Both the position numbers and the translations under genes were made by a program. Of a stretch of DNA of 59,668 bases, positions 595 to 37,893 are shown piece by piece. Numbering within the stretch: the first letter of the stretch is position 1; each line of letters begins with the position of its first letter. The stretch comes from a virus. Location of the stretch: positions 1-59,668 of the IMG/VR virus record IMGVR_UViG_3300031862_000785; one strand, written 5' to 3'. The notes beneath the pieces are model-generated. The model was not told the origin of the DNA and ran no database searches. It worked only from the letters and a program-made list of their open reading frames with translations.

Positions 595-797
595 TCTTCC
601 TTCTCCTCTCTTTTCCAGTCGCGTTTCGCTCTCCCGAGGACGTCCTCTATCTTCTCGATGACGTCCGGCGGAGGCGGTTTGAAGACCGCGTTCACGGCCT
701 TGTAGATGGCCTCCCGAATGCGCCGCCACAAGGCGTCATCGGGGTGCCCCTTGTCCTCATCATGGTTGTCCCTGCCCATCGGCTCCACCCACAACAT
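564..797 (-). CDS. Small acidic/basic hypothetical protein
   Basis: A 77-residue protein. The ATG at 797 overlaps the stop of the upstream gene (TGATG) and has an AGGAGG...AGGAG ribosome binding region, so translation is probably coupled. The N-terminal half is acidic (DNHDEDKGHPDD) and the C-terminal half is lysine-rich helix ending in EEKEECQDEGSEKQ. No signal peptide, membrane segment or known motif. Unknown function. Confidence 0.6.
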   Translation of the reverse strand: MLWVEPMGRDNHDEDKGHPDDALWRRIREAIYKAVNAVFKPPPPDVIEKIEDVLGRAKRDWKREEKEECQDEGSEKQ

Positions 798-1021
798 CAC
801 TCTCCTAACCTCCTGGCCACCGCGATGAGCGAGGCCGCTCGACTGACGTTCACCCACCCGTCTTCGAAGCGCTTCTGGCGCTTGACCGTGCGGCTGGTCA
901 GCATATAGCGAGCCGACCCGTTGGGATGGACGAGGTAGGTGTGCTTCTGACCCTCCTTGCGGCTGTAGCCCTTGCTGAGCAGGTGCCGCTCGATGCGTTC
1001 CTTCGCCTCGATAGCGGTCAT
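797..1021 (-). CDS. Hypothetical 74-residue protein
   Basis: Begins at ATG 1021, overlapping the stop of the upstream ART-like gene (ATGA), and ends in a TGATG overlap with the next gene, so it sits in a tightly coupled operon. The protein is basic, with a predicted helix (AIEAKERIERHLLSKG) followed by two strand-like segments (HTYLVHP, ARYMLTSRTV) and a C-terminal helix. The size and alpha-beta order resemble small nucleic-acid-binding folds, but no motif identifies a family. Confidence 0.65.
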   Translation of the reverse strand: MTAIEAKERIERHLLSKGYSRKEGQKHTYLVHPNGSARYMLTSRTVKRQKRFEDGWVNVSRAASLIAVARRLGE

Positions 1022-1698
1022 CGGTTGCTCCTCACTTCAATCCTCTGGCGCTTCAGCGCGGCAGCAATCTGCGACACGTGCTCCTCCCCGAGAAGCGACC
1101 TCAAGCCCGGTTCCACCTCCAGCCACTCATCCAAGGTCACCTCGTTACCCATGTACCAACGTGTGAGGAGCCGATACTTCTCGGCGCACAGCATCCAGTT
1201 GAGCACGGAGATGGTCGGGTCCAGCGCCGCCATCGCCATCTGGGGGTTGTCGGTCGGGTCGTAGAGGGCGACCCGGGTGATGGCCTCGGTCGGAATCACC
1301 CCGGCATGGGCGCAGGTTCCCAGGGCTTGCAGGGACTCCTTCCAAAGCCCGTCCCATCGCCCAAGCGACAATACCAGGCGGTTGAGGTCAGCCCAGGACA
1401 TCTCGCGGCAACCCGGTTCCTGTCGTTTGAGCACCTGTGCGATGAAGTCTTCATCGGGTCGCAGCAGGCGCTCGTCCAGAGCAGCCAGCCTCACCTCCAC
1501 CAGCGCGTGCCGCTCGCCTTCCGCCGCGGCTCCGGCCGCGAAATAGGGTGCGTATCCCTCGGCGAGATATACTCGGTCAGAGGCCGACGGCACGGTGCCC
1601 CATGTGCTTGGCCGCTCGCCGCGGCGCGGCATGATTCCGTCCTGCAGAATCGCCTTCACCGCGCCCTCCGCTGTCCCGTGATACAGAAACTCTCGCAT
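1018..1698 (-). CDS. Possible ADP-ribosyltransferase-fold (KptA/PARP-like) protein
   Basis: A 226-residue protein starting at ATG 1698, which overlaps the amidotransferase stop as TGATG. The N-terminus carries FLYHGT, then PSTWG and SDRVYLAEGYAPYFA. This H...S/T...Y order is what RNA 2'-phosphotransferase and other ART-fold enzymes show around their NAD-binding core. The assignment rests on motif order only, and I did not identify the third catalytic residue. It is the third gene after an amidoligase and an amidotransferase, so it may act on the same substrate. The C-terminal half has no recognisable domain. Confidence 0.5.
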   Translation of the reverse strand: MREFLYHGTAEGAVKAILQDGIMPRRGERPSTWGTVPSASDRVYLAEGYAPYFAAGAAAEGERHALVEVRLAALDERLLRPDEDFIAQVLKRQEPGCREMSWADLNRLVLSLGRWDGLWKESLQALGTCAHAGVIPTEAITRVALYDPTDNPQMAMAALDPTISVLNWMLCAEKYRLLTRWYMGNEVTLDEWLEVEPGLRSLLGEEHVSQIAAALKRQRIEVRSNR

Positions 1699-2405
1699 CA
1701 CAGGCCCTCCCATGCGAGGTCGGCCGTGGCTTCCAGGCGGTAGATCACACCCGGCTCGACCCATGCGAAGCTCGCCAGCAGCCCCGCCTCGCACAGCGCC
1801 TTCTCCGCTATCTCCTCCGTGGACGCCCACCAGACAGCGGGCATATCCTCGACGCGAAAAGCAACCAAGGGCATCTCCCCGTTGGTCCAGGCGAGCATCG
1901 CGTGGGCAGTGCCGTTGATGGCGAGCACCGACTGCTTGCCGCCCAGCGCCAGGCACACGTCCGGCCCCTCGACAACGCCGTATCGGTCGAGAGCCTGCGC
2001 CAGGATTTCCGAGTCGCACTGCGACCTCATCTGCAGGCCGAGGATGGCTGCCTTGCGTTCGTGCTGCGGGATGAACCCGTTGTGTACCAGCGCCCAGTCG
2101 CCCGCCAGGTGGGGATGATTGTTGCCGTTCACGGCGGGCGCTCCGGTCGTGGCGAGCCGGGTGTGGCCGATTGCCATGACCACGCTCTTGCGGCGGAGAG
2201 CAGCAAACTCTCTGCCCAGAAAAAGGTCGCGCGCCGGCCCCGGTTGCCGCTGCCACAGCAACTCGCCGCCAGAGGTGAGCGCGGCGAAGCCAGCCGCGTC
2301 CACTCCGCGCTCCTCGGAGGCAACCGACAGTTCTACCATCAGGCGGTGGGCGAGCGCCCACTCGCGGCGGGTGAGGTTGCCTGCGAATCCGAAGACCCCG
2401 CACAT
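1698..2405 (-). CDS. Class II glutamine amidotransferase (Ntn hydrolase)
   Basis: A 235-residue protein. The ATG at 2405 places Cys directly after Met (MCGVFGFAG), the hallmark of class II amidotransferases, where the processed N-terminal Cys attacks the glutamine amide. Further family motifs are EERGVDAAG, GHTRLATTG and NNHPH...LVHNG, and CDSEILA fits the usual acidic position. There is no synthase domain, so it probably delivers ammonia to a partner or acts as an amidase. The partner is likely the amidoligase two genes upstream, since that pairing is known for amidoligase operons. GGAG lies nine bases before the ATG. Confidence 0.85.
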   Translation of the reverse strand: MCGVFGFAGNLTRREWALAHRLMVELSVASEERGVDAAGFAALTSGGELLWQRQPGPARDLFLGREFAALRRKSVVMAIGHTRLATTGAPAVNGNNHPHLAGDWALVHNGFIPQHERKAAILGLQMRSQCDSEILAQALDRYGVVEGPDVCLALGGKQSVLAINGTAHAMLAWTNGEMPLVAFRVEDMPAVWWASTEEIAEKALCEAGLLASFAWVEPGVIYRLEATADLAWEGL

Positions 2406-2406
2406 C

Positions 2407-2604
2407 TCACGTCTCCAGCATGTCCGCGATAAACTGGACGGCCTCGGCAACCTCCGCCGGCCCGTAGGCGCCTGGCTGAATGCTCAGGGGATATGGGTTG
2501 CTCAAGCTTTCCTCATCGAAGTCAGGGATGATGAGGTCGCATCCACCGACTGCCCGGAGCTGCTCGGCTGCCTCTCGAAGCAGGGTCACAACAGTCTTTG
2601 TCAT
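2407..2604 (-). CDS. Small acidic protein between amidoligase and amidotransferase genes
   Basis: A 65-residue protein with a clear ribosome binding site (AGGAGG nine bases before ATG 2604). It ends one base before the amidotransferase ATG. It has an N-terminal helix (TKTVVTLLREAAEQLRAVG), an acidic middle (IIPDFDEESL) and a C-terminal helix, with no known motif. Its size and its place between two peptide-modifying enzymes make it a candidate substrate or carrier, but that is inference from position only. Confidence 0.65.
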   Translation of the reverse strand: MTKTVVTLLREAAEQLRAVGGCDLIIPDFDEESLSNPYPLSIQPGAYGPAEVAEAVQFIADMLET

Positions 2605-2622
2605 GTTCTTTTCCTCCTCGCA

Positions 2623-3570
2623 TCATCGGGCGTCCGCCCGGTCGTACTTGCGGGCCAGCCTCTTCAGTTCTGCCTTTACTGGCTTGAGGTCAGCCAGGTC
2701 TGCAATCCATCCCGCCATCTCGACCTGCGGCTTGCCGACATCCCGGCGGCCCAGCGTCCATCCCGCCAGGTAGAAGAACCGGTTGAGTTCCCGCAGCCCC
2801 TTGCCCCTCACGTGGTAGGTGCGCTCGCTGGCAAGCGCGTCCCAATCCATCTTCGCGGTCTCGGTGGCTCGCTCGCAGAGGGCGAGTGCCATCTGGATGT
2901 GGGCCACCATCTTCGTCCACTCGACCGTTCCGGCTCCGTGGCGGAACTCCACCGTGGCCTTGCGGGTGAACAGGTTGGTCAGGTTCAGGGTGTGGTAGCG
3001 AGCCAGTCCGTAGACCGCATCCTGGAGTGCTTCCCGCTTGCGAGTATCGGGAGCGCGGCGCACCCTGTCGGCGGCGTTCTTCTGCGCCTTGATGCTGCGG
3101 GCGTAGCCGCCGTTCTCTCTGCGGTGGGTTCCGGTCGAGGCGTAGAGTGCCGTCTCGTGCATCGCCACGTGGTAGAGGAGCTTGGCCACCCACTCGGCGA
3201 CCTTGGTGAAGCTCTCGCCGGCGACGGCCTCCGCTGAGCAGTGCACGTGGAGCCCCGCTGTGGTGTTCACGACTGCCCCTAGGCCCTTGAGCGTCTGCGC
3301 CACCTGCTTGACCTGTTCGATTCCGGCCCGCCCATGCAGTATGGGGCTCACAATCTCGACGGGGACGTAACCGCGCCGGTCGGTGCGCAGGCTGCCGTCC
3401 CGCTCTGCTGTCCACCCTTGGGGGAAGGGCGAGGGGAGCGGGTGGCCGTGGTGGTAGGAGCCGATGCTGATGCCCAGGTCGTTGATCGCCCGGTCAGGAA
3501 AGAAGCACTCGATCTCCACTCCCCATCGGTAGGCTTCCGCCTTGCTGCTCGTTATCTGCGTCTGCGCCAT
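2623..3570 (-). CDS. Putative amidoligase (COOH-NH2 ligase, glutamine-synthetase-like fold)
   Basis: A 315-residue protein with the conserved features of the amidoligase family (PF12224 type): GVEIE near the N-terminus for metal and ATP, RDGSL followed by VEIVSP, AGLHVH, and TVEFRHGAGT. Enzymes of this family are predicted to join a carboxylate to an amine using ATP, modifying peptides or making small metabolites. The ATG at 3570 follows GAGG. It opens a separate cluster with its own likely promoter and a terminator just upstream. The substrate is unknown. Confidence 0.85.
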   Translation of the reverse strand: MAQTQITSSKAEAYRWGVEIECFFPDRAINDLGISIGSYHHGHPLPSPFPQGWTAERDGSLRTDRRGYVPVEIVSPILHGRAGIEQVKQVAQTLKGLGAVVNTTAGLHVHCSAEAVAGESFTKVAEWVAKLLYHVAMHETALYASTGTHRRENGGYARSIKAQKNAADRVRRAPDTRKREALQDAVYGLARYHTLNLTNLFTRKATVEFRHGAGTVEWTKMVAHIQMALALCERATETAKMDWDALASERTYHVRGKGLRELNRFFYLAGWTLGRRDVGKPQVEMAGWIADLADLKPVKAELKRLARKYDRADAR

Positions 3571-3607: not shown

Positions 3608-3636
3608 ATTCATGCCTGCTTTGGCCGGAAAGTCAA
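3608..3636 (-). promoter_or_regulatory. Weak candidate promoter of the amidoligase cluster
   Basis: TTGACT (3636-3631), a 17-nt spacer and ATGAAT (3613-3608) lie about 40 bases before the amidoligase start and directly after a terminator. The -35 is good. The -10 matches only its last three positions. Confidence 0.35.
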
Positions 3637-3670: not shown

Positions 3671-3702
3671 GGAAAGAAAGACCCCGCCGCGGCTGAGCGG
3701 GG
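3671..3702 (-). terminator. Rho-independent terminator after the lysis genes
   Basis: On the minus strand CCCCGC (3702-3697) pairs with GCGGGG (3687-3682) across a nine-base loop, followed by the T-rich tail TCTTTCTTTCC. It lies just past the stop of the small gene at 3732 and separates the tail/lysis transcript from the amidoligase cluster. Confidence 0.7.
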
Positions 3703-3731
3703 CCTGTTCTCCTGATTCCGCCGCGGCTGAC

Positions 3732-3974
3732 CTACTCGGTGAGCGCGTCAAGGCCCCAGACGAACACTGGCAGGCCCTCGGTGAAGCGCGCCTGCTCCTC
3801 GGGCGAGAGCCGCCCCAGCCACCGCTGCACCCCGGGATCATCCAGGATGGCGACCGAGGCCGGCTGGTAGGACTCGCTGGTGACTGCGGGGTCGCTTGCG
3901 TGAACCGACTTCAGGTTCTCGAACAGCGTGCCCAACCTGATCGCCAGATACAGATACTTCATCCATGCCCACAA
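3732..3974 (-). CDS. Small lysis-region protein of unknown function
   Basis: An 80-residue protein. I place the start at TTG 3974 because AAGGAGGTGATC, a full complement to the 16S rRNA tail, ends three bases before it; a GTG at 3983 lies inside that site. The N-terminus is aromatic and hydrophobic (WAWMKYLYLAIRLGTLF), possibly membrane-associated. The rest is soluble with a Pro-Glu-Glu-Gln helix. It follows the NlpC/P60 lysin and precedes a terminator, so a lysis accessory role is possible but not shown. Confidence 0.65.
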   Translation of the reverse strand: MWAWMKYLYLAIRLGTLFENLKSVHASDPAVTSESYQPASVAILDDPGVQRWLGRLSPEEQARFTEGLPVFVWGLDALTE

Positions 3975-4004
3975 CTTGATCACCTCCTTTCTTCTCTGCG
4001 TTCG

Positions 4005-4481
4005 TCACCCCAGCGCTACCGGGGTGTAAAGCTCCTGCACTTTGCAGGCGAGGTTGAACGAAGGGCGCACCGGGCCGATGGTCACTCCGTAACGACTGCC
4101 CCGCGCCTCCAGGAGATAGCCGTTGCCGAGCGAGATCGCTACGTGTCCGATCTGGTGAGGCTTGCTCGCGTAGGCGCTCGCGGATCGGATGAAGAGCAGC
4201 GCGCCAGGCAGTTTGACCCCGGCCTCGAACGGGATGGACACGGAGCGCTCCCACTGGAACCCGGCGCCGTCGAAGACATTGATCGGCGTGACTCGACCCT
4301 TCGAATCGGTGACCTGCTCAATGCCGACCTGGGCGAGCAGATGCTGAACCAGTTCGGAGCAGTCCCAGGTCTTGAGCGACTCTTCAGGCTGCCCTTCGCT
4401 TCCGAGCACGTACGGCTTGCCGACTTCCTTGAGCGCCAGCACCAGCAGGTGGGCGGTCTTCGTTGGCCGCCAGGGCTTCAT
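4005..4481 (-). CDS. NlpC/P60-family peptidoglycan peptidase (endolysin)
   Basis: A 158-residue, single-domain protein. The catalytic Cys is C41 in WDCSELV, the His is H113 in IGHVAISLG, and a polar residue is expected in the strand after it. This arrangement is the NlpC/P60 (CHAP-like) cysteine peptidase core that cuts peptidoglycan stem peptides. No signal peptide is seen, so export probably depends on the membrane protein encoded just upstream, whose stop overlaps this ATG (ATGA). Position after the tail genes fits an endolysin, though a tail-associated muralytic role is possible. Confidence 0.8.
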   Translation of the reverse strand: MKPWRPTKTAHLLVLALKEVGKPYVLGSEGQPEESLKTWDCSELVQHLLAQVGIEQVTDSKGRVTPINVFDGAGFQWERSVSIPFEAGVKLPGALLFIRSASAYASKPHQIGHVAISLGNGYLLEARGSRYGVTIGPVRPSFNLACKVQELYTPVALG

Positions 4482-22165: not shown

Positions 22166-25100
22166 TTACGGCCTCGCTTGCTGTAGTGCCAGGGCCTCTT
22201 CAGCGAAATTCACCACCACGTTGTGGTCTGGCGAGTGGCCTACGATGGCTTCTATCTCCACTGCCGTTCTCACCCCATGCTTCGTCTTTCCGTAGTAACT
22301 CTCCATGCGCTGCGATAGCTCCCAGAGCCGCTGGTCGCGAGGGGTGCGGTAGGCCAAGTCCAGGTAGAGCTTCGGGTCAATCCCGCGCATCGGCTCAAAC
22401 ATGGAGCGCCCGGCATAAGGCCCGCCGAGAGCCTTGGCCAGGGCCTGCTGATAATCGCCATAGCTTGCCATCCCGGCAAAGTCGCGCTTGTCCAGGCCGG
22501 AGGGAAACCCCATGATGCGCTCGAAGAGCTTCGGCGCCGTCTCGTCGGCCCCCGCGGCGGTAAGGCCTTCCTCTATCCACCTCTGCGCCGCCGTCGCGTA
22601 CTCGTGGGTCTTGATTGCCCCGTCCATCCCCATAGCATGGGTTGCCTCATGCACCAGGGTGTTGAAGGAAGAGGTCATTTCCATCTTCTGGTTCCGGGAA
22701 AGCTTTGCCCAGGAAGCTGCATCGTGCTTCAACATCGCATCCAGGCGATTCCTCGCCTCCGAGCCGATGCTGATGGCGCAGTCCCAGTCCTTGTGCCCGC
22801 CGAAGGCGCCTCGACCGGTGCGCAAGTCTCCATTCCATCCATGCTTCGCGCCCACCATCTCAGCCAGCTCATCGCAAGTGCGCCCCGTCAGTTCCAGGTC
22901 TGTCTTTGGCTTCGTGAGCTTGGGCGGAGCAGCGATGGGCCGAGCGGCGGCCACGGCCTGTCCCGTGCGCTTGCCGCGCTCCGCCACGCCGAAGAAAGCC
23001 GGCCCGCTGATTGCCCGATAGCCCGTTATTGCCCGGGCCGCCTCGGTGAGGGAGCTATAGACGCGGCCCTCGTAGTAGACCTTGCCTCCTTCGAGGATGT
23101 TCACAACATGTCGTTGGCCCTTGAAGGTGCGCTCCAGGACGGTGCCCGCGGGCAGAGCGCGCAGCTCTGGCTCCGGGATGGACACCCGCGTGGGTCTGAG
23201 GCGCCCTCGCGCCGCGGCAACCCCTGCCCGCCCCGCCCGCACAAGCTGCCGCTTTCCCGCGGCCCGGGCGACGCCGGGGAACTCCTTGCGGAAGCGCCGT
23301 TGGAGTTCGGCAGGGGACTTGTTCAGGAGGTCGGGCGAGATGATGCCCCGCTTCTTCTCGTCGTCGGTTGCGAGGCGTTCCACGAATGGCGTGAGCACGT
23401 GAACGCAGTTGTGCACCACGAGTCCCTCCACGACGTAGCTGTTGTCCTCCAGCACCTCAAGGTTGAAGACCCGACAAGTACGCCACCGCTCCGGTATGTA
23501 AGAAGTAGGCGCCCACTGCGTGTCCCTGGGTGCCGCGGGAGGCGACCCGTGACCATGCACTGCCTGATCTGTGGGAAGGCCATGAGCGTCAACGCCTCGG
23601 CGAAGCAGCGGCGACGCACCTGCGGTTATGCCTGTCGGGCTGAGTTGCAGTTCCGGCGTTCGCTGGCCCGCATGGAGGAACTCGTCGGCGAGCCACTCGA
23701 GCGCTACCTGCGACGCCGCTACGAGAAGGAGTGTTGCTCCATCAACGACCTCGCGCGCGAGCTCACCGGCGGTGACGTCCACACCATCCTCAAAGCCATG
23801 CGCCGACTTGAGGTGCCAGTCCGCCCCAGAGGCCATCAGGTCAAGGGCCTCACCAAAGAGACTTCTGACCTCTATGACCTCCACTCCCTTCGGATGCAGG
23901 TGTGCAATCCCTCGCAGCTCCGCCACACCCAGATCGCGCGAGCGCGCGGCCAGGCGCTGCGGAGCCGCCGCCGGCCTTCCCCCTCGGAGAAGAAACTCGC
24001 AGATCTGCTCGCCGGAAGCCATCTGACGGAGCGATGGCGCTTCCAAATGCCGTGGCGTGGCTACGTGCTCGACTTCGCGTTCCCGGCCGTTCTTCTTGAC
24101 GTGGAGCTCGATGGGAAGAACCACTGGAACTCCGACCGGCGCGCCCGTGACCGAAAGCGAGATGCTTTCCTGGCCGAGGAGGGATGGAAGGTGGTGCGCA
24201 TCAGCACGAAGCGCTTCGAGTCCAACCCACGGAAGGTCTTGGCCGAAATCCTGGCCCTCCTGGCCGACCGCCAGCGGGACATGGTGGCGAGCAACATGCC
24301 CAGCCGCTATCCAGCCCCAGGGGCACAGGAATGGGTGTTCTGGTGTCGCTGACACCTGCGATTCGCCGGCCATGAGCGTGACGACCGGCCCCTCGTAGGG
24401 ACGGGCGAACACTTCGGTGACGGCCCTGTAGCGACCGCGGTGAGTGAGCACCTCGTCGCCAACGCGTACCTTCTCAATCGGCACCAGGCCGTGGCGGGTC
24501 GTGACACGTTGGCCTGGCAACAGGCACCGCGGGTGAAAAGGCGGGCCGCCGTTGATGGCGGTGATCGGCGGATACACGGGGTGCGGCCCGTCGAGAGAGA
24601 CGACGGCATTCTCATAGTAGCGGCAGAAGTCTTCCGCGTTGTGCGCCGATACCTGGGCGAGGGTAACGCCGTGCTCGCGCAGGCGGTTGATGGTGCCCTG
24701 GGTCATCGCCTCGCGCGTGGTCGTGCGCGCCACCATTTCGGCATAGCGGTCGAGGGGCCACTGCCGCCCTAGCGCGTCCACGAACGTCGGCCTGCCCGCA
24801 GCAATCAGCCGCTGCTCCAGTTCGCGGCTGACCTCAATACGAGCGCGGCCGGCGGCAATCCCCCTGGCAACAGCGAGCATCCCCTCCCGTCGGAAGACGT
24901 CGTCCACGCGGCGGCCTATCTGCACGAGTGCCGCGCTTGTGGTCTGCAGCATAGACTCCATGATTGCCCGCGCGGCCTCTCGGTGCACCTGGGAGAAGAC
25001 TTCTCGCTCGCGGCGGCCTACTACCGTTGTTCCGCGTCGGCGCAGGTTGATTCCCGCGCGGCGGATGTTGCGAACTCCTTCGTCGGCGAACTCAAGCCCG

Positions 25101-25351
25101 ATGTCGTAGGCGCGGGGGATGTTGAACTCTATCCAGGCAGCAGCCTCGTCTCCGAGATCGGCGAGGATAGTCTGATACTGGCGCAGCAGGGCGACGGCCC
25201 GGCCTCGCTGCCCGGCGAGCGTCGCCGCGTCCGCGAGCACGTCCATCATGTCTGCCGCCCCGTCCCGATAGAGAGCAGCCAGAGAGTTGATCTCGCCGGT
25301 GAATGCTCGCCGGAACTCCTCAACTCGGCGACGGCCGATGGGTGGAGGCAC
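22166..25351 (-). CDS. MuF head protein with intein, DUF2924-like module and metallopeptidase domain
   Basis: A 1061-codon frame from GTG 25351 (GAGGAG nine bases upstream). Residues 1-275 are the phage MuF head-morphogenesis domain, running to PPFHPR. Codons 276-648 are an intein. Splicing would rejoin PPFHPR to CVHVLTPF, restoring the conserved HPxCxHxxxP motif. Residues about 736-788 form a DUF2924/DUF4357-like module (YYEGRVYSSLTEAARAITG ... FFG). Residues about 820-1000 contain LVHEATHAMG (H901, E902, H905) and WIEEGLTAA, as in zinc gluzincin peptidases. MuF proteins enter the head through the portal, and some carry toxin domains; this one may deliver or use a protease. No separate prohead protease gene was found nearby. 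Confidence 0.85.
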   Translation of the reverse strand: MPPPIGRRRVEEFRRAFTGEINSLAALYRDGAADMMDVLADAATLAGQRGRAVALLRQYQTILADLGDEAAAWIEFNIPRAYDIGLEFADEGVRNIRRAGINLRRRGTTVVGRREREVFSQVHREAARAIMESMLQTTSAALVQIGRRVDDVFRREGMLAVARGIAAGRARIEVSRELEQRLIAAGRPTFVDALGRQWPLDRYAEMVARTTTREAMTQGTINRLREHGVTLAQVSAHNAEDFCRYYENAVVSLDGPHPVYPPITAINGGPPFHPRCLLPGQRVTTRHGLVPIEKVRVGDEVLTHRGRYRAVTEVFARPYEGPVVTLMAGESQVSATPEHPFLCPWGWIAAGHVARHHVPLAVGQEGQDFGQDLPWVGLEALRADAHHLPSLLGQESISLSVTGAPVGVPVVLPIELHVKKNGREREVEHVATPRHLEAPSLRQMASGEQICEFLLRGGRPAAAPQRLAARSRDLGVAELRGIAHLHPKGVEVIEVRSLFGEALDLMASGADWHLKSAHGFEDGVDVTAGELAREVVDGATLLLVAASQVALEWLADEFLHAGQRTPELQLSPTGITAGASPLLRRGVDAHGLPTDQAVHGHGSPPAAPRDTQWAPTSYIPERWRTCRVFNLEVLEDNSYVVEGLVVHNCVHVLTPFVERLATDDEKKRGIISPDLLNKSPAELQRRFRKEFPGVARAAGKRQLVRAGRAGVAAARGRLRPTRVSIPEPELRALPAGTVLERTFKGQRHVVNILEGGKVYYEGRVYSSLTEAARAITGYRAISGPAFFGVAERGKRTGQAVAAARPIAAPPKLTKPKTDLELTGRTCDELAEMVGAKHGWNGDLRTGRGAFGGHKDWDCAISIGSEARNRLDAMLKHDAASWAKLSRNQKMEMTSSFNTLVHEATHAMGMDGAIKTHEYATAAQRWIEEGLTAAGADETAPKLFERIMGFPSGLDKRDFAGMASYGDYQQALAKALGGPYAGRSMFEPMRGIDPKLYLDLAYRTPRDQRLWELSQRMESYYGKTKHGVRTAVEIEAIVGHSPDHNVVVNFAEEALALQQARP
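23408..24526 (-). other. Intein coding segment inside the MuF gene
   Basis: 1119 bp, 373 codons, in frame with MuF. The N-terminal splice block begins at Cys276 (CLLPGQRVTTRHG) and includes VGDEVLTHRG. Block B is VSATPEHPFLC, with the expected T and H. The C-terminal block reads RVFNLEVLEDNSYVVEG and ends LVVHN before Cys+1. Only about 110 codons are recognisable Hint sequence. The remaining roughly 260 codons are the complement of a gene on the other strand and show no endonuclease motif in this frame. Confidence 0.88.
23549..24352 (+). CDS. Antisense homing-endonuclease-like gene nested in the intein
   Basis: Plus-strand gene, the only one besides the XRE repressor-like gene. GTG 23549 is preceded by GGGAGG six bases upstream; ATG 23555 is the alternative start. 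From ATG the protein has 265 residues. A zinc ribbon (C3, C6, C23, C27 in CLICG and CGYAC) comes first, then a helix-turn-helix-like middle (INDLARELTGGDVHTILKAM). The C-terminal DUF559/Vsr-like nuclease has E145 (SPSEKKL), D173 (VLDFAF), E184-D186 (DVELDG), H190 and RDRKRDAFLAEEGWKVVRIS. Such nucleases are known in inteins and free-standing homing elements. It lies wholly within the intein and ends at the Hint block B codons. Its codons are in exact antiparallel register with the MuF codons. Confidence 0.88.
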   Translation: MTMHCLICGKAMSVNASAKQRRRTCGYACRAELQFRRSLARMEELVGEPLERYLRRRYEKECCSINDLARELTGGDVHTILKAMRRLEVPVRPRGHQVKGLTKETSDLYDLHSLRMQVCNPSQLRHTQIARARGQALRSRRRPSPSEKKLADLLAGSHLTERWRFQMPWRGYVLDFAFPAVLLDVELDGKNHWNSDRRARDRKRDAFLAEEGWKVVRISTKRFESNPRKVLAEILALLADRQRDMVASNMPSRYPAPGAQEWVFWCR

Positions 25352-36270: not shown

Positions 36271-37893
36271 TCAGTGCGTCGCATTCTCGAAGGCTCCAGC
36301 CAGCGACCGCTGCGCGGTCCGTCGTTTCATCTGCGCCTGATACTCATCGCAGATATCGATCCCAATCCACCACCGCCCCAGTTCCTCCGCCACCTTGAGC
36401 GTGGTGCCGCTGCCGGCAAAAGGATCGAGCACCAGCGCCGGACGTGTCGGCCAGCGCTCGAGGATCTCCGCCGGCCACCTGTCTGCTTCTATCTCTCCCG
36501 CGCCGGCGCACTCTGGGCACGGTTCGTCCACAGGTTCTCTCTGCAGTCGCACCAGGTGCGGGTTGTTCGCCTGGTAGGGCGACTTGTTCTGCTCGGCGGT
36601 GTTCGGGCCGGCCTCCGGATATTCCAGAGCTTGCCCGGTGCCGCCGCACTGTTCGCAGGTGACCACGACTTCCTCCGGCTGCCCATGACAGGTGCAGGTC
36701 GGCTGCCAGCCGAGCGTTGTGACGCGATACCTCGCAACCTTGCCGAGAGTGCTGGACTCGTCGCGCTCCTGCCCACCCGGCGGCCGACCCTTGGTCGAGT
36801 AGTTTCCGCCCGGCCCGTTCGGATAGCCGGTGTTATCGATCTCCCGTTGAGTCTGCCGCTGCCAGGGCGCGCCGCAGTCTGCACAGACCTTCGGCGGTGA
36901 TCCGGCCAGGATGCAGCGCCGGGGCAATTCGGGAGGGAAGACCGCAAAGTGCGCGCCGGGATAGCCGACGGTCGAGAATCGCCAGACTGAGCGCAGGTTT
37001 GCCCCAAGCGGATTCGGGCCCTTTTCCCGGATGCGACTCTTCGTATCACCAGGAGACTGAGCGAGAGTTCCCGCCGCGTCCTTCTGGTGGCGAGGGACGT
37101 AAGGTTCCCACGTCGTCTGTTCCGAATACGGTTCGCGCACCGCATCTGCGTCGTAGAAGTAGCGCTCGCTCTTCGCGAGCAAGAGCACGTATTCGTGTCC
37201 TTCGGTTGGACGATCCTTCACCGACTCGGGCATGGGGTTCAGCTTGTTCCAGATCACCACGGATCGTATCCACCACCCGTCCGCCTGCGCCGCTAGTGCC
37301 ACCCGAAACGGGATGAGACACATATCTTTCGGTTTGAGTGACGCGTGATTGCCCGTCATCGGCGGCCGATCGGTGAAGCCATCCCACGCCGCCCGGGGAA
37401 TGCGCTCCTGGTGCGAGGACCGCTGTCGCCCGCGTCGGCTGCCGTAGTTGCCCCAACTCCCGAAGAAGGTGTCGCCCAGGTTCCACCAGACCACTCCGTC
37501 GGGGCGCAGCACACGGCGGATCTCGCGCAGGACGTAGACCGTGTGCTCCACGTACATCTCTGGCGTGGGCTGCAGGCCGAACGGCCCGCGCCAGGCGCCG
37601 CACTTCGCGCACGCGGAGTCCTCTCGCCAGCGGGCCGCTTTCAGCCGCGCGGCGTTGCCTTCGCCGGCCTCACTGAAAGCCTCCCTGCTGCCCCTGGCGA
37701 GCGACTGCTCGGCGTAGTAGCGGCGCGAGGCCCACTCGTGCTCGCAGTCGGGATCGCCGCCCCACACCGCCTCCTGCTGGCCGTCATAGCGCCGTAGCCC
37801 CCAGTAGGGCGGGGACGTGACAACACACTGGACGCTCTCTGCCTCCATTTCTTGCAGCACATCCACGCAATGGCCTATTCGGACTTCCCGCAT
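36271..37893 (-). CDS. DNA methyltransferase with zinc-knuckle insertions
   Basis: A 540-residue protein. TSPPYWGLRRYDG (motif IV) near the N-terminus and LDPFAGSGTTLKVAEELGRW (motif I) near the C-terminus give the beta-class order. The intervening region has several CxxC pairs (CAKCG, CADCG, CTCHG, CEQCGGTG, CPECAGAGE), suggesting a zinc-binding target-recognition insert. Similar large phage methyltransferases usually methylate adenine N6 or cytosine N4. Confidence 0.85.
   Translation of the reverse strand: MREVRIGHCVDVLQEMEAESVQCVVTSPPYWGLRRYDGQQEAVWGGDPDCEHEWASRRYYAEQSLARGSREAFSEAGEGNAARLKAARWREDSACAKCGAWRGPFGLQPTPEMYVEHTVYVLREIRRVLRPDGVVWWNLGDTFFGSWGNYGSRRGRQRSSHQERIPRAAWDGFTDRPPMTGNHASLKPKDMCLIPFRVALAAQADGWWIRSVVIWNKLNPMPESVKDRPTEGHEYVLLLAKSERYFYDADAVREPYSEQTTWEPYVPRHQKDAAGTLAQSPGDTKSRIREKGPNPLGANLRSVWRFSTVGYPGAHFAVFPPELPRRCILAGSPPKVCADCGAPWQRQTQREIDNTGYPNGPGGNYSTKGRPPGGQERDESSTLGKVARYRVTTLGWQPTCTCHGQPEEVVVTCEQCGGTGQALEYPEAGPNTAEQNKSPYQANNPHLVRLQREPVDEPCPECAGAGEIEADRWPAEILERWPTRPALVLDPFAGSGTTLKVAEELGRWWIGIDICDEYQAQMKRRTAQRSLAGAFENATH

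Follow-up and report, generated by a model that had tools for sequence, protein, structure and literature searches.

The conserved unit of the phage gene cluster described here consists of only two genes, an amidoligase gene and a class II glutamine amidotransferase gene. Such pairs are of wide occurrence among phages. For the cluster as a whole, the best explanation, to which we give about an even chance of being right, is that the two enzymes form an amide on a peptide, most probably the stem of peptidoglycan, and that the neighbouring genes, encoding a protein of predicted ADP-ribosyltransferase fold and a protein of 65 aa, are cargo.

The window, i.e. the whole stretch of DNA that was analysed, corresponds to positions 1 to 59,668 of the IMG/VR virus record IMGVR_UViG_3300031862_000785 (59,668 bases). 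From its matches to serine-integrase-like, portal, terminase and tape-measure proteins, it looks like a tailed phage that is probably temperate. Among the best matches listed for its terminase, those to named phages are only distant (about 29-32% identity). Its principal genes are on the minus strand, where the region of interest successively includes a holin-like gene, an NlpC/P60 endolysin gene, a small gene, a hairpin and then the genes encoding the amidoligase, the 65-aa protein, the amidotransferase, a 226-aa protein and a 74-aa protein (Table 1). The preliminary description had placed four genes there, from the amidoligase gene to that of the 226-aa protein, and all four open reading frames are present on this strand. 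The genes of the amidotransferase and of the 226-aa protein overlap through TGATG (1700-1696), and the latter overlaps the 74-aa gene through ATGA (1021-1018). According to dN/dS values, purifying selection acts on all four cluster genes. A PADLOC search of the four proteins recognised no defence family.

Table 1. Features of the amidoligase-amidotransferase locus and of the adjoining lysis genes in the window.
Feature	Positions	Strand	Basis
Amidoligase_2 (315 aa), ATP-dependent carboxylate-amine ligase of glutamine-synthetase-like type	2623..3570	-	PF12224, PHROG 2443
Acidic 65-aa protein, accessory	2407..2604	-	No family match
Class II glutamine amidotransferase (235 aa), a lone glutaminase domain with N-terminal Cys	1698..2405	-	PF13522, GlmS model
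ADP-ribosyltransferase-fold protein (predicted), 226 aa, accessory cargo gene	1018..1698	-	AlphaFold2 model
Conserved gene downstream, 74 aa, with a weak match to HicA	797..1021	-	Sequence comparison
Intrinsic-terminator-like hairpin, between lysis genes and amidoligase	3679..3705	-	10 pairs and T-rich tail
TTGACT box upstream of amidoligase, possible -35	3631..3636	-	Conserved in relatives; no consensus -10 found
NlpC/P60 endolysin	4005..4481	-	PF00877 E 5.3e-08
Conserved small protein, endolysin-amidoligase interval	3732..3983	-	Similar proteins by eye; no family match
Holin-like small protein, one N-terminal hydrophobic segment	4478..4741	-	Sequence; no credible family match

The amidoligase passes the curated cut-off of PF12224 (E 2.8e-22; 80.2 bits for a cut-off of 22) and also matches PHROG 2443, "amidoligase enzyme" (7.2e-23). 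Residues E19, E21, D58, E72, H108, H110, N199, E208 and R210 are invariant across eight relatives and could be the metal and ATP ligands of a glutamine-synthetase-like site. The dN/dS of the gene is 0.06-0.12 in comparisons with the four closest relatives and about 0.2-0.3 with more distant ones. No solved structure was found to match this protein, and a literature search retrieved no member of Amidoligase_2 whose substrate is known.

The amidotransferase matches GATase_6 (PF13522, E 3.8e-13) and, over the glutaminase part, the NCBIfam model of GlmS (1.2e-17). Alignment with GlmS places its residues C2, R83, N109, G110 and D131 on C1, R73, N98, G99 and D123, respectively; they are invariant in eight relatives, and C2 becomes the N-terminal residue once the methionine is removed. 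The family match and this complete set of glutaminase residues bear out the Cys2 glutamine amidotransferase initially proposed. The gene has dN/dS values of 0.13-0.23 against the four closest relatives and about 0.2-0.3 against more distant ones. Although the protein shares the cysteine nucleophile and the Arg, Asn, Gly and Asp residues of the class II glutaminase domains of GlmS and PurF, it differs from them in being a stand-alone protein devoid of synthase domain, its partner being a separate amidoligase.

In the mechanism that we propose, the N-terminal cysteine of the amidotransferase would hydrolyse glutamine and release ammonia, while the amidoligase would activate a carboxylate with ATP and join to it this ammonia, or another amine, to give an amide. 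A peptide would be the likeliest substrate, and among peptides most probably the stem of the host peptidoglycan or of its precursor. The reaction would occur in the late phase of infection or in the lysogenic state, and could be beneficial, for example by altering lysin sensitivity or by blocking a competing phage. Another division of labour, which we regard as unlikely, would be a cycle of protection and deprotection, or of building and trimming, in which a group such as gamma-glutamyl would be added by the amidoligase and hydrolytically removed by the amidotransferase fold, as by EgtA and EgtC in ergothioneine synthesis. EgtC structures and an EgtC model are among the weak matches of the amidotransferase, and the amidotransferase was placed among degradation genes in PMC5498523; however, the protein matches the glutaminase domains of GlmS and PurF best, and every glutaminase residue is kept.

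The pairing of amidoligase and amidotransferase is the rule, although it is not universal. In all the close loci found with the amidoligase (7/7), the amidotransferase gene adjoins it or, in L007, lies two small genes away. A reverse scan, using the amidotransferase profile alone as query, gave 80 loci; 50 viral records found in this way were then searched for PF12224, which was detected in 45 of them. The same search was negative for 14 control genomes (0/14) and for the viral records found by the ADP-ribosyltransferase profile or as its look-alikes (0/6). Clustering at 70% identity left 36 non-redundant viral clusters; in 31 of them, an amidoligase gene lies on the same strand at 600 bp or less from the amidotransferase gene. 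This agrees with the pairing mentioned in the preliminary description and already known from published phage cassettes. The two genes are also adjacent in a cultured phage, Arthrobacter phage Ottawa.

Other arrangements were encountered. In Porphyromonas phage phage021a_SJD5 (L113), a lone amidoligase gene precedes neck and tape-measure genes, and no class II amidotransferase was found in this record. In L029, L031, L035, L044, L052 and their relatives, the gene of an amidoligase of about 600-680 aa is followed by the amidotransferase gene, a conserved gene of about 100 aa and the gene of a second amidoligase, whose N-terminus is rich in cysteine.

Larger gene sets that include both enzymes have been published. 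A seven-gene peptidoglycan-modification cassette, including amidoligases, an ATP-grasp protein, a gamma-glutamyl cyclotransferase and a glutamine amidotransferase, is conserved in phiEco32, LUZ24, tf and other phages (PMC5498523). A similar gene set is found in UFV-P2 (PMC3890496), and OM43 phages carry an amidoligase-amidotransferase pair for which a link with superinfection was put forward (PMC10580990). As in the phiEco32-, LUZ24/tf-, RIO-1- and CW02-like cassettes, an amidoligase and a class II amidotransferase occur together in the window. In contrast to the phiEco32/LUZ24-like cassette, the window harbours the two-gene core, which closes the late region beside the endolysin gene, in a probably temperate phage. 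Neither the GGACT gamma-glutamylcyclotransferase (PF06094) nor the COOH-NH2 ligase (PF14395) was found in the window, whose record may be a fragment, whereas the same searches find the former in Ottawa and CW02 and the latter in CW02. The R2K_3 model (PF14243) has no match in the window, nor in CW02 despite the annotated ATP-grasp gene of this phage. Judging from gene content, the pair of the window can be considered as a reduced form of the known cassette. The lineage of the window would be a minimal, two-gene version, and the question of the substrate involves there only two proteins, where the full cassette has seven genes.

Genes 65-66 of phage Ottawa, annotated as carboxylate amine ligase and glutamine amidotransferase, are the same two genes, arranged alike. 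However, in Ottawa the pair is immediately preceded by a GGACT match and has a ParB-like gene downstream, and the phage carries no ADP-ribosyltransferase gene of the family found in the window. An analogy, which is functional only, can be drawn with MurT-GatD from Staphylococcus aureus, where an ATP-dependent ligase and a glutamine amidotransferase amidate a peptide carboxylate (PMC3267633); the families are unrelated, MurT-GatD associating a Mur ligase and a class I amidotransferase.

Endolysins of unrelated families are swapped at one fixed position among the phages related to that of the window. The lysin encoded upstream of the pair belongs to NlpC/P60 in the window, L002-L005 and L017, to Amidase_2 in L006, L007 and L015, and to Amidase_3 in L008. 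All three families are known for cleaving peptidoglycan at peptide or amide bonds. Throughout this lineage, the pair remains just downstream of the lysis genes. Proteins similar by eye to that encoded between the endolysin and amidoligase genes occupy the equivalent position in L003, L007, L008 and L017, and proteins similar to the holin-like product are encoded upstream of the lysin gene in L003, L004, L008, L015 and L017. The constant position of the pair beside a changing endolysin fits with a function related to the wall, and the peptide or cell-wall target suggested in the preliminary description is still the best available guess, the pair adjoining lysis genes in this lineage. A more specific proposal, which we hold to be rather less likely than not, is that the pair is a peptidoglycan-amidation module tied to lysis: in late infection or in lysogens, it would amidate carboxylates of stem peptides and thereby make the wall resistant to foreign lysins or superinfecting phages, and the module would be retained through endolysin swaps. 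The lineage provides a natural comparison, with a varying endolysin and a constant pair.

Outside this lineage, the pair is found near packaging (terminase), ParB-like or early genes and not near lysis genes. Because of these other locations, the adjacency to lysis genes may merely be a gene order inherited within the lineage of the window. The same pair, with the same chemistry, could also act on another target, such as a protein of the phage or of its host, a small metabolite or an amino acid linked to DNA; we consider this possible but rather doubtful. In several distant groups, the pair does lie near ParB-like and terminase genes, but in the lineage of the window it stays beside the lysis genes whatever the type of lysin. 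Iyer, in 2009, reportedly predicted diverse peptide modifications for the wider class of amidoligases. Published proposals nevertheless favour the cell wall (PMC10580990, PMC5498523).

The 226-aa protein reaches no gathering-level family in Pfam, and members of its family show weak matches to the PARP, KptA and ART-PolyVal models. A profile built from six sequences of the family matches Tpt1/KptA and DarT in the PDB. A structure run on three near-identical sequences gave no fold (pLDDT 40), whereas restriction to residues 1-162 and addition of three distant relatives gave one; the AlphaFold2 model of residues 1-162, computed with five relatives, has a pLDDT of 75.8 and a pTM of 0.72. Its best structural alignment is with Tpt1/KptA, the NAD lobe of which superposes over 88 residues (rmsd 2.0, Z 10.1), followed by CC0527 (Z 8.0), DarT1 (Z 7.7), then ADP-ribosylating toxins and Scabin. 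Foldseek is in agreement with these matches. The fold also occurs in many phage proteins. The model confirms the ADP-ribosyltransferase fold expected from the ART-like motifs that had been noticed in the sequence; the toxins are matches of fold only and say nothing about toxicity.

Residues H7, T9, Y44, D82 and S122 are invariant in distant relatives. Of the H-Y-E site, H7 and Y44 are kept while the position expected for the glutamate reads G127/T128, as judged from sequence and secondary structure only; the protein probably lacks the catalytic glutamate. It shares with the RNA 2'-phosphotransferase Tpt1/KptA the fold of the NAD lobe and the YHGT motif, but a Tyr replaces the His of the second motif and there is an additional C-terminal region. 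In Tpt1, the Arg-His half of the Arg-His-Arg-Arg tetrad is carried by the N-terminal RNA lobe (PMC6333775), and the phage protein is devoid of this lobe and hence of this half. A true KptA could be ruled out, as there is no RNA lobe and the protein begins at the NAD lobe. A profile scan of bacterial genomes gave KptA-like proteins matching over 22-23 residues only, so that it did not establish any cellular homologue for the phage family. The protein, which keeps H7 and T9 of the NAD lobe, would probably bind NAD and have a target of its own, outside the amidation pathway. This gene reveals a small family in phages, characterised by a Tpt1-like NAD lobe and no RNA lobe, that appears to move independently between them.

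The distribution of this gene differs from that of the pair. It is present in three of the nine informative relatives, the window (counted among them), L002 and L003, and it is absent from L005-L008, L015 and L017 according to a profile search with a positive control; L004 was excluded from the count, its contig stopping after the amidotransferase gene. In L005, the gene is precisely missing and the 74-aa gene directly follows the amidotransferase gene, while in L006 an unrelated ORF of 84 aa occupies its place. Its dS between the window and L002/L003 is 0.146/0.122, compared with 0.352/0.505 for the amidotransferase gene and 0.420/0.308 for the 74-aa gene, and its dN/dS is about 0.30. Because its silent divergence is lower than that of the flanking genes (0.12-0.15 versus 0.31-0.51), it is probably a recent arrival, spread by exchange. 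Distant homologues adjoin recombinase-like genes in L095 and L096 and have a different setting in L094; PF12224 and PF13522 were not detected in the records of these homologues.

These data bear on the suggestion that the three enzymes form one coupled system, the ADP-ribosyltransferase sharing a substrate or a pathway with the pair. Such a system, which we consider very improbable, would agree with the gene overlaps (TGATG and ATGA) and with the order kept in L002 and L003. However, the gene is absent from six of the nine informative relatives, its silent divergence is unlike that of its neighbours, and its distant homologues occur in records where neither amidoligase nor amidotransferase is detectable. 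The gene order of the three-enzyme cluster is thus not conserved, and the claim of a single system does not hold; the comparisons point to an independent passenger beside the pair.

The small acidic protein noted initially is indeed acidic (65 aa, with 11 D/E and 3 K/R). Its gene was found only in the window and L002 (dS 0.066; dN/dS about 0.30), and would be cargo like the ADP-ribosyltransferase gene. The possibility that it encodes a conserved substrate peptide was ruled out, only two loci having the gene. The 74-aa gene shows a weak HicA-like match (PADLOC, E 2.7e-4), no HicB being recognised; further downstream, the product of the ORF 181-729 resembles, by eye, ribbon-helix-helix proteins.

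The cluster had also been described as lying behind its own promoter. A sigma-70 scan of the minus strand gave no promoter, but the hairpin is aligned in L002-L005 and the TTGACT box is kept in L003-L006 and L008 (altered in L002), so that signals conserved in most close relatives do precede the amidoligase gene. They fit with a separate transcription unit, and the cluster may plausibly have a promoter of its own.

Among about 20 further proteins of the window that were annotated, three match methyltransferases. A reading in terms of DNA hypermodification was considered, but in this set of proteins the matches show no visible link to the pair. The DNA methyltransferase encoded at 36271-37893 (540 aa) has a match covering residues 7-535 that spans only about 220 model positions, and separate C-terminal matches near residues 483-528; this protein likely contains an insertion, perhaps an intein. 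In the same way, the minor head protein encoded at 22166-25351 (1061 aa) has a head match over residues 29-276, then matches near residues 274-342 and 726-795, including one to a ribonucleotide reductase family, and these interrupted matches suggest an intein.
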